From Nitrosopumilus sp. D6 (GTDB lineage: Archaea > Thermoproteota > Nitrososphaeria > Nitrososphaerales > Nitrosopumilaceae), in the NCBI GenBank assembly GCA_003724325.1, contig RHFD01000025.1, positions 1 through 33,469 of the forward strand: a stretch of 33,469 nt of DNA, written 5' to 3'. The notes under the pieces are model-generated. The model had not been told where the DNA came from. It saw only the letters and a program-made list of their open reading frames with translations, and searched no databases. The stretch's first letter is position 1. Each line of letters starts with the position of its first letter. Shown here one piece after another: positions 10,157-13,459 of the stretch. The position numbers were made by a program, and so were the translations under genes.

Positions 10157-11293
10157 TTGGAGTGCCAGGAGATAGTCGAGGGAGCAACAAGATTACTTGT
10201 ACCTGCGGGATCCCTTCAGGGAGAGGCTCCGCCTAGGAATCCTGCGTTTTTTAATCCGAGGGCTAGAATTACTAGGGACTATTCCATGCTGGCATACTCG
10301 GCGCTACTTGAGAGTATTGAAGGCCCCGGAACACTGCTAGATGTAATGGCAGGAATTGGCGCAAGAGGGCTGCGGGCTGCAAACGAGGCGGGCGCAGACA
10401 GTGTAATATTAAATGATATCAACGGGGCTGCAATCGAGATTGCAAAGGAATCAGCGGCGCTCAACTCACTGTATAATGTAGAATACTCGCAAGATGATGC
10501 GTGCAGGTTTCTTGCCGCCCATTCTGGGCGCGGCAGGCAGGCAGCGATAGTTGATCTCGACCCGTTTGGATCCCCTGCGGCATACATTGACTGCGCGATA
10601 AGATCGGTAATGTACGGCGGAATGCTTGCAGTGGCAGCTACAGATCTGCAGGTTTTAAACGGGCTGTGGAATGACACGTGCCGAAAAAAGTACGGCGGCG
10701 TGCCAATACGCGTCTGCTATGGGAACGAGGTGGCAATCAGGCTGGTACTTGGGTGCATCTGGTCTGTGTGCGCGCGTCTGGGAGTCGGCATGAGTCCGCT
10801 GTTTGTACAAAGCGACATGCATTATTACAGGGTTTATGTGCGCATTGAAAAAAAGACGGGTTCTGGGGGACTGGGACACATCATACACTGCGACGGGTGT
10901 GGTCAGAGAGAGGCAGGTATTGCAGAGTCGTGCAGACTGTGCGGGTCGGCAGTCAGGGTGGCAGGGCCGCTTTGGATAGGAGAACTCTTTGATTCAGAGT
11001 TTGTAAAAAAAATGATATCAATGGTTCCCTCATATATGGTGGAGAGCTCGTGCAAAAAGACGCTTGAAAAGTGCCTTGCAGAGGCGCAGATGCCTGCCAC
11101 ATACTATACCATAGATGAGACTGCTTCGCGTGCAAAGACGGGCCCGCCAAAGCTTGTAAATGCCATACAAATGTTGCGCGAGTCAGGGCATGCGGCAAGC
11201 GTCACATCCTTTGAGAGCACGGGATTCAGAACAGACGCAGATGCGCTCCAGATAGCAGGGGCGCTCTATCAGATGAACCCGAGGCAGACATAG
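10157..11293 (+). CDS. trm1: tRNA (guanine26-N2)-dimethyltransferase
   Basis: FFNPRARITRDYSMLAYSALL, LLDVMAGIGARGLRAANEAG, VDLDPFGSPAAYID, AVAATDLQVLNG; zinc-binding CDGCGQ...CRLCG. Confidence 0.92.
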   Translation: MECQEIVEGATRLLVPAGSLQGEAPPRNPAFFNPRARITRDYSMLAYSALLESIEGPGTLLDVMAGIGARGLRAANEAGADSVILNDINGAAIEIAKESAALNSLYNVEYSQDDACRFLAAHSGRGRQAAIVDLDPFGSPAAYIDCAIRSVMYGGMLAVAATDLQVLNGLWNDTCRKKYGGVPIRVCYGNEVAIRLVLGCIWSVCARLGVGMSPLFVQSDMHYYRVYVRIEKKTGSGGLGHIIHCDGCGQREAGIAESCRLCGSAVRVAGPLWIGELFDSEFVKKMISMVPSYMVESSCKKTLEKCLAEAQMPATYYTIDETASRAKTGPPKLVNAIQMLRESGHAASVTSFESTGFRTDADALQIAGALYQMNPRQT

Positions 11294-11862
11294 TACATCT
11301 CGCTGCTCTGCTTTCTGCTTGCCTTTGGTTTTGTGAGATTGATTCTAGAGAACTTTTTTGAGACATAGTCGCGAAACTCCATTGAGAACTCGCCATCAAA
11401 GACCTTGAATACGGCGTTTCCCTTGTGGGAGAGTACGGCATCCATTATCTTGGTGCAGTCATAGTTAAGGGATATTTGCCTGGCATGATCGACAGACCAG
11501 TTGCCGCTTACCTGCGGGGAGAGGTCACAGATTACGGCATCAGCCTTGCGGCCAAAATGCTCCAGTATCTCGTCTGCGACTCCCGTATCAGATACATCAG
11601 ACTGGATCATGTGTGCTCCCGGGATCTCATCTACATATGACAAATCCACTCCAATCACCTTGCCCTGGTTTCCTGCCATCCTGACTGCCATCTGTGTCCA
11701 TCCTCCCGGGGCGCATCCCAAATCCACCACATTGAATCCGGGTCCGATTATACGGTACGACTGGTTTAGTTCCTTGAGCTTGAATGCAGAGCGGCTCCTA
11801 AAGCCCTGCTCGTGTGCAAGCCTTCGATAGAAATCCTTTCTTGCGTCAGCTAGCTTCATTTT
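11269..11862 (-). CDS. rlmE: RlmE/FtsJ-type rRNA 2'-O-methyltransferase
   Basis: RSRSAFKLKELNQSYRIIGPGFNVVDLGCAPGGWTQMAVRMAG. Start taken at about the MKLADARKDFYRR methionine; ORF 11269..11907. Confidence 0.85.
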   Translation of the reverse strand, partial: KMKLADARKDFYRRLAHEQGFRSRSAFKLKELNQSYRIIGPGFNVVDLGCAPGGWTQMAVRMAGNQGKVIGVDLSYVDEIPGAHMIQSDVSDTGVADEILEHFGRKADAVICDLSPQVSGNWSVDHARQISLNYDCTKIMDAVLSHKGNAVFKVFDGEFSMEFRDYVSKKFSRINLTKPKASRKQSSEMYYVCLGFI

Positions 11863-13004
11863 ACCCGCTTTGTCCCTGCAATGACCCAGTCCTCGATTAG
11901 CTGGCACGTCCTCGGGCTTATCTCGCCGTCAAGGCTGCACTTTTGCTCGACGGGGCAGACAAGGCATGGCGCATTCTCAATTGACTGGGTGCTAATGGGT
12001 GTCTTTTTGAGGATGAGTTTGTACGTCCAGCGGTTCTTCTCTAGGAGCTTTTCGCGCACAATGGTGCCGTTTCTTTCAAGCTTTAGCGCAAGGCGCGAGC
12101 CGTCACGATTTGTTATCTTGAGGCGCTTCCACAGATTTCCCTGCAACATGCCCCCGGACTCGTGGCTTGCAAGTATGTCGCAGACCTTGTTTGTAAGCCG
12201 GTCCATGTCGACTTTTTCTATCTGAAAGTTTTCAATCTCTGCATCTGAGAGCTCTTCTTCGAGCTGCTCCTCAAGCGTCCTTTCGGCCTCTTTTTTTGCG
12301 GCTGCAAGCTCTGCCTTTGTCGGCTTTTTTACCGGCTTTGGTGGCACTTTTTTCTCAGGTTTTTTTATAATCTTTTTAGGCTTTGTAGTTTGTTTTGCTG
12401 GTTTTTTTGTAGTTTGTTTAGTCTTTTCAGGCTTTTTTGTAGTCACCTTTGTTGGTTTATCGGGAGTCTGCTTTGTTGGTTTTTTTGTAGTTTGTTTAGT
12501 CTTTTCAGGCTTTTTTGTAGTCACCTTTGTTGGTTTATCGGGGGTCTGCTTTGCTGGTTTTTTTGTAGTTTGTTTTGTTTGTTTTTCAGTAGCCTGCTTT
12601 GTTGGTTTTTTTGTAGTTTGCTTTGTCTTTTCAGGCTTTGTAGTTTGTTTTTCAGGAGCCTGCTTTGCTGGTTTTTTTGTAGTTTGCTTAGTCTTTTCAG
12701 GCTTTTTTGTAGTCACCTTTGTTGGTTTATCGGGGGTCGGTTTTTTTAGAGTCTTTTCAGGCTCTGCCTTTTTTGCTGGTTTTGTCTCTTTTGTAGTCTT
12801 TGTATTTTCTACAGCATGTCCGGCTTTGGGTTTTGGCACATGCTTTTTGCGCCTAGCCTTTTCCTTTTTCTCCTCGGAATCTAGAATCTTCTTTTGCTGT
12901 TTTAGATCCTTTATCTCGGCCTTTAGCTTTGCCCTTTCTTCTGCTATGGATTCCTTTTTTGTCATCATATCACTCCGTCTGAGATCAACCTTTGGATTAT
13001 CCAT
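11856..13004 (-). CDS. TFE-beta / RNA polymerase III RPC34(RPC39)-like factor with long Lys/Thr/Pro-rich repeat tail
   Basis: C-terminus APCLVCPVEQKCSLDGEISPRTCQLIEDW matches the cysteine cluster recalled for eukaryotic RPC34/39 (APCGLCPV...C..GGEISPSNC.Y...W). Preceded by a winged-helix-like region. N-terminal half is low-complexity KKPTKQTPDKPTKVTTKKPEKTKQTT. Confidence 0.82.
   Translation of the reverse strand: MDNPKVDLRRSDMMTKKESIAEERAKLKAEIKDLKQQKKILDSEEKKEKARRKKHVPKPKAGHAVENTKTTKETKPAKKAEPEKTLKKPTPDKPTKVTTKKPEKTKQTTKKPAKQAPEKQTTKPEKTKQTTKKPTKQATEKQTKQTTKKPAKQTPDKPTKVTTKKPEKTKQTTKKPTKQTPDKPTKVTTKKPEKTKQTTKKPAKQTTKPKKIIKKPEKKVPPKPVKKPTKAELAAAKKEAERTLEEQLEEELSDAEIENFQIEKVDMDRLTNKVCDILASHESGGMLQGNLWKRLKITNRDGSRLALKLERNGTIVREKLLEKNRWTYKLILKKTPISTQSIENAPCLVCPVEQKCSLDGEISPRTCQLIEDWVIAGTKRVK
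12405..12580. repeat. 78-bp near-identical tandem repeat in the TFE-beta-like tail
   Basis: AGTTTGTTTAGTCTTTTCAGGCTTTTTTGTAGTCACCTTTGTTGGTTTATCGGG starts at 12411 and again at 12489 (period 78 bp = 26 aa); shorter related units continue to about 12740. Confidence 0.85.
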
Positions 13005-13006
13005 GC

Positions 13007-13459
13007 CTATTTAACAGTAAATGTCCCGCCAGCAGAGAGGTTTGGGATGTTGCTGTTTACTAGATCCACCTCTAGATTGTAAGTGCCCGAGGTACCTACC
13101 TGCTCGGAGAACTCGGGATCTATCTCGAGTTGGCCGTCGTCATCGGCACACACAGACCTGTAGGATTTTTGATTTCTCTTTTCATCCGGATCGACTATTG
13201 AAATGTAAAGATCACCGCACTTAAACCCGGGATCATCAACTAGCACCTGAATCTCTACTTTCTCAGAGGCATCGTATTCCTCCAAGAGACCCTCTATCAC
13301 AAGCTGGGACTCAGTCTGAGCTGCTCTGGCAGGTTCCGGGGCAGGCTGGATTGAGATGCCATCCTGGTTATACGCAAGACCATACATGACTGCACCTCCA
13401 AATACAAGCGATGCTATCGCAGGTAGTATGAATATGATAAAGGCGTTTTTTGTTACCAT
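13007..13459 (-). CDS. Membrane-anchored extracytoplasmic protein, predicted beta-sandwich
   Basis: N-terminal TM IIFILPAIASLVFGGAVMYGLAYN followed by a beta-rich domain ending GTYNLEVDLVNSNIPNLSAGGTFTVK. Confidence 0.6.
   Translation of the reverse strand: MVTKNAFIIFILPAIASLVFGGAVMYGLAYNQDGISIQPAPEPARAAQTESQLVIEGLLEEYDASEKVEIQVLVDDPGFKCGDLYISIVDPDEKRNQKSYRSVCADDDGQLEIDPEFSEQVGTSGTYNLEVDLVNSNIPNLSAGGTFTVK

Follow-up and report, generated by a model that had tools for sequence, protein, structure and literature searches.

The gene tfeB, on the reverse strand of a 33,469-nucleotide stretch of DNA (the window), is identified from its sequence as encoding TFE-beta, the archaeal RPC34/RPC39 orthologue and Fe-S subunit of the general initiation factor TFE-alpha/beta, with a long lysine-rich tail ahead of its core domains. 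Comparison across the family to which the window belongs makes a new pattern visible: the repeats that build this tail are replaced in almost every species, and its positive charge is always kept. Neither the TFE-beta identity nor the tail is new, as the low-complexity N-terminal tail of the thaumarchaeal RPC34 orthologue was noted already in 2009, in a study whose Cenarchaeum symbiosum query core comprised residues 244-362 (Blombach et al., 2009, PMC2770514). What is added here is the family boundary of the tail, the turnover of its repeats, the conservation of its charge and a conserved segment at its N-terminal end.

Identity and core domains

Profile comparisons link the protein to RPC34. 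A profile of 18 Thermoproteota relatives matched human RPC6 at 7.4e-9, covering both the winged helix and the Fe-S block, and the Pfam family RNA_pol_Rpc34 (PF05158) matched 16 of these 18 relatives, with a best value of 1.1e-10. The APCLVCPVEQKCSLDGEISPRTCQLIEDW block of the window protein also aligned with the human Pol III subunit RPC6/RPC39 in a single-sequence search (0.0037), and the C-terminal part of the protein matched RNA_pol_Rpc34 at 4.5e-4, below the curated cut-off. These similarities, together with published descriptions (PMC2770514, PMC4495717), bear out the TFE-beta/RPC34 identity proposed in the initial annotation, which had also suggested the profile comparison of the C-terminal part. 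Its description of the factor as Pol III-like is sound as an evolutionary relationship; a Pol III-specific function is unsupported. In Sulfolobus, TFE-beta acts as a general factor that stimulates initiation, and its [4Fe-4S] cluster is required for pairing with TFE-alpha (Blombach et al., 2015, PMC4495717).

Searched at full length, the protein gave no Pfam match even at E<=10, linker histone included, and only the C-terminal part alone matched; genes of this kind are therefore easily left unannotated. The gene is likewise absent from the matches of a PF05158 scan of its own genome, which reflects the limited sensitivity of a single profile on a divergent protein. Orthologues were found in 276 of the 301 genomes of the class, nearly all of them single-copy, and in 72 of the 81 genomes of the phylum sample. 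The partner TFE-alpha is encoded elsewhere in the same genome (G000:C18:7934-8224; PF02002, 3e-16) as a 190-aa protein with no comparable tail. Second TFE-beta-like matches, possible paralogues, occur outside the family of the window in genomes G167, G190, G265 and G355, one of them in a 418-codon open frame.

The C-terminal 130 residues contain a winged-helix-like segment and the APCLVCPVEQKCSLDGEISPRTCQLIEDW block, as the initial annotation had described. The winged-helix domain (12003-12203 (-)), running from about DRLTNKVCDILA to WTYKLILKK, is placed by the Thermoproteota alignment and by the RPC6 match; a low-confidence AlphaFold core model (pLDDT 45) shows the order H-H-H-E-E but is too weak to establish the fold. 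The alignment leaves only ~10 residues between it and the Fe-S domain APCLVCPVEQKCSLDGEISPRTCQLIEDWV (11883-11972 (-)), which is defined by the human RPC6 match, by PF05158 and by a C-terminal motif C-x2-C-x5-C-x10-C whose four cysteines are invariant across the 18 diverse sequences aligned. Between the tail and the winged helix lies an acidic spacer, ELAAAKKEAERTLEEQLEEEL (12249-12311 (-)), in which the stretch TLEEQLEEEL precedes the C-terminal core; a TLEEELEEQL block is conserved in relatives. The last 25 residues before the core carry a net charge of -4 in the window protein and a median of -5 in the family, where they are mostly acidic.

It is extremely improbable that the gene encodes a MarR-type regulator or is an assembly chimera. 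The winged helix is weakly similar to a MarR profile, but the RPC6 and PF05158 matches and the Fe-S domain contradict such an assignment, as do the widespread, nearly always single-copy orthologues and the occurrence of the same architecture in 89 proteins. The MarR misannotation of the thaumarchaeal RPC34 family has already been explained (Blombach et al., 2009, PMC2770514).

Reading frame and lysine-rich tail

The frame at 11856-13004 (-) is unbroken, with 382 codons and no internal stops in the ORF listing, and takes in the K/T/P/Q-rich N-terminal ~230 aa, in agreement with the single continuous ORF first annotated. The frame stands, but its start probably lies further in: relatives begin with MAKKKD or MTKKKD, which correspond to residues 13-14 of the window frame (12968/12965), and by inspection an SD-like GGAG (12973-12976) lies 7 nt upstream of M14. 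The probable true extent of tfeB is 11856-12968 (-). With these starts and this GGAG, translation probably begins at residue 14 or 13, giving a protein of 369-370 aa with an extension of 239 aa before the core. The tail is not an assembly artefact, because the same architecture recurs in 89 distinct relatives; a chimera or frameshift, which would have made the tail a separate ORF, was rejected on this ground.

The low-complexity tail (12312-12878 (-)), delimited by Tandem Repeats Finder and by comparison with relatives, consists of ~190 residues of K/T/P/Q repeats between the N-terminal segment and the acidic stretch, with a unit of ~26 aa (PTKVTTKKPEKTKQTTKKPxKQTPDK). At the DNA level, Tandem Repeats Finder detected units of 78 bp and 66 bp with 95% match; both are multiples of 3, so the repeats are in frame. 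The fractions of K, P and T in the whole extension are 0.30, 0.11 and 0.17, a composition from which we infer that the tail is disordered. Its earlier description as histone-H1-like applies to composition alone, since no linker-histone Pfam match appeared at E<=10. Searches with the tail sequence found no similar tail elsewhere in the same genome and no further such tails in the genomes of three relatives.

Distribution of the tail in Thermoproteota

The family of the window (f1) is taken to be Nitrosopumilaceae from its named relatives, Nitrosopumilus and Nitrosarchaeum. All 89 distinct full-length proteins of this family carry the tail, in a set built with a minimum extension of 50 residues; the only closed frames below this minimum were L183, where a run of N breaks the frame, and L187, which has no ATG start for its tail and was included manually. 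Extensions range from 57 to 277 residues with a median of 109, and the 239 residues of the window protein rank fifth. By comparison, none of 47 loci from other Thermoproteota families (class and phylum) has a lysine-rich extension longer than ~30 residues. The tail, thought unusual when first annotated, is thus standard for this family; the suggested comparison with other Thaumarchaeota places it in 89 of 89 proteins within the family and at none of the 47 loci elsewhere. Because Nitrososphaeraceae-like and other Thermoproteota use TFE-beta without a tail, the tail is dispensable for the basic function of the factor. At one locus of another family (L165), a longer upstream frame is not lysine-rich and probably reflects a wrongly called start codon. 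L124 (G096:C1; family f4) has a short N-terminus rich in K, P, A and R, MKAKPAKKPARKPAAQKKARVARKAAG, possibly an independent gain.

Every full-length family member seen has a tail, and apparent absences had other explanations: a run of N at L183, tails without an ATG start at L187 and L211, a contig end inside K-rich repeats at L129, L142 and L213, and a contig end before or at the tail at L202 and L205. Many contigs built from short reads break off within the tail repeats (e.g., L012, L018, L022, L033, L129 and L213); tail lengths in draft genomes are therefore often underestimated and the gene is split. Longer tails were also encountered. An extension of ~303 residues with a net charge of ~+70 (L206) was added after the 89-protein set. 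In a one-contig 3.2 Mb genome (L214; G134:C1:1734500-1738100), the TFE-beta core lies in a 1025-codon open frame with an extension that, counted from the first ATG, has 871 residues, a net charge of +109 and 45 GGKK units in GGKKAAPAP-type repeats; its start is uncertain, and the protein may reach 1005 aa.

Repeat turnover and charge conservation

The repeat unit of the window protein was found in no other genome among 61 of the family, and the unit varies by species even at 90-95% core identity. The window shares 90% identity with Nitrosopumilus sp. H13 (L003) in the core DNA and 86% in rlmE; the tails are alignable only in patches of 32-60 nt, about 75-84% identical. Leaving aside the last 25 residues of the extension, the tail has a net positive charge in 89 of 89 family proteins (+6 to +52). 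The positive bias persists where the tail DNA is 84% GC, and K-rich repeats are present also in reduced genomes of 0.8 Mb. Between repeat copies, pooled pN (0.104) is lower than pS (0.189), which is weak evidence for possible purifying selection within the repeats because the copies were chosen by amino acid similarity, a choice that lowers pN.

Such turnover might also arise if the tail were a largely neutral minisatellite, expanded by replication slippage where disorder is tolerated. The in-frame tandem repeats in DNA, their species specificity and the spread of lengths (57-277 aa, and perhaps 871 at the extreme) agree with this account. We nevertheless regard it as improbable, as charge remains positive in every protein despite turnover and a wide GC range, no full-length family member lacks the tail, pN is below pS (subject to the choice of copies) and a conserved segment lies beyond the tail.

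That segment, M(M)TKKESIAEERAKLKAEIKDLKQQKKILD (12879-12968 (-)), is helix-like and was defined with a profile of 23 relatives. The profile of their first 34 residues scored the window protein at 39.4 bits, a value reached by 0 of 200 shuffles, and also detected the divergent members L177, L178, L180, L187 and L196. It found no match in Nitrosarchaeum-like and some other clades of the family, which are mostly shorter-tailed. No description of the segment was found in the cited literature on RPC34/TFE-beta (PMC2770514, PMC4495717).

Genome neighbourhood and proposed role

Downstream of tfeB lies rlmE (11269-11859 (-)), encoding an FtsJ-type 23S rRNA 2'-O-methyltransferase (Pfam FtsJ, 1.8e-52). 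Its start falls inside the tfeB stop in an ATGA overlap of exactly 4 nt (11856-11859), confirming the overlapping arrangement first reported, and this overlap is kept in 101 of 102 testable family loci. RNA-processing genes are dense between 7514 and 17430 of the window: Nop5, fibrillarin, RNase HII, Trm1, rlmE, tfeB, Pcc1, L37Ae, Rrp42, Rrp41, Rrp4 and SBDS. Directly upstream of tfeB, 13007-13459 (-) encodes a protein of 150 aa whose N-terminus appears to form a membrane anchor and which has no match in Pfam or NCBIfam.

We lean towards a model in which the tail of this TFE-beta is a disordered polycation that binds the nucleic acid backbone, probably that of promoter-flanking DNA, and raises residence and open-complex stability. 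By homology with Sulfolobus, the clamp of RNA polymerase would be the site where the Fe-S domain pairs with TFE-alpha, and the winged helix would lie near promoter DNA. The intrinsically disordered N-terminal extension could then bind the nearby backbone non-specifically; as a positively charged chain anchored to the winged helix, it may lengthen local residence and stabilize the open complex. The conserved far-N-terminal segment possibly docks on a partner, in which case the tail would serve as a tether, and the acidic spacer beside the winged helix might limit self-binding.

A polycation cannot tell DNA from RNA, and the tail might instead bind RNA (rRNA or tRNA transcripts), a different polyanion (for example polyphosphate) or chromatin proteins. 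The gene does sit beside those for rlmE, Trm1, the exosome (Rrp41/42/4), SBDS, fibrillarin and Nop5, and a role in stable RNA transcription has been argued from gene context (Blombach et al., 2009, PMC2770514). However, tail-less relatives also keep the rlmE linkage, so the neighbourhood gives no explanation for the tail, and Sulfolobus TFE-beta acts in initiation (PMC4495717). We consider these other targets unlikely relative to promoter DNA. A more far-reaching reading, less likely than not, is that the TFE tail of Nitrosopumilaceae is a selected, sequence-free, charge-conserved tether with a docking end, and that repeat expansion sets its length (57 to possibly ~870 residues).

Strong conservation is the rule among basal initiation factors, and here a whole family of abundant marine archaea has gained a fast-changing, always positive tail on one of them. 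The many natural tail variants and the tail-less outgroups offer a test of whether transcription initiation in archaea responds to charge and length alone and not to sequence. If the tail does act as a tether, this would be an archaeal instance of a core initiation factor that bears a disordered extension, and the family would provide a natural series for the effect of polycationic tails on open-complex formation.

Comparison with known systems

The closest counterparts are the thaumarchaeal RPC34/TFE-beta proteins already described (PMC2770514, PMC4495717), which share the winged helix, the four-Cys Fe-S domain, the low-complexity N-terminal extension and the linkage to RNA-modification genes; the window protein differs from them only in its particular repeat unit and length. 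Sulfolobus TFE-beta has the core domains in common, but lacks the long tail and carries its Cys ligands at residues 92-112 (PMC4495717). Human RPC39/RPC6 (POLR3F) has a nearly identical Fe-S motif and one related winged helix; it has a structured insert where the window protein has only ~10 residues separating these two parts, and its match includes no lysine repeat tail. Linker histone H1 tails and AlgP-like proteins resemble the window tail in their K/P/A/T-rich repeats, yet no homology to either was detected and the globular H15 winged-helix domain of H1 is absent from the window protein. An analogy is offered by mycobacterial sigma-A, a protein unrelated to TFE-beta that is also a general initiation factor and bears a disordered N-terminal extension of ~207 residues that is important for its function (PMC10011835).
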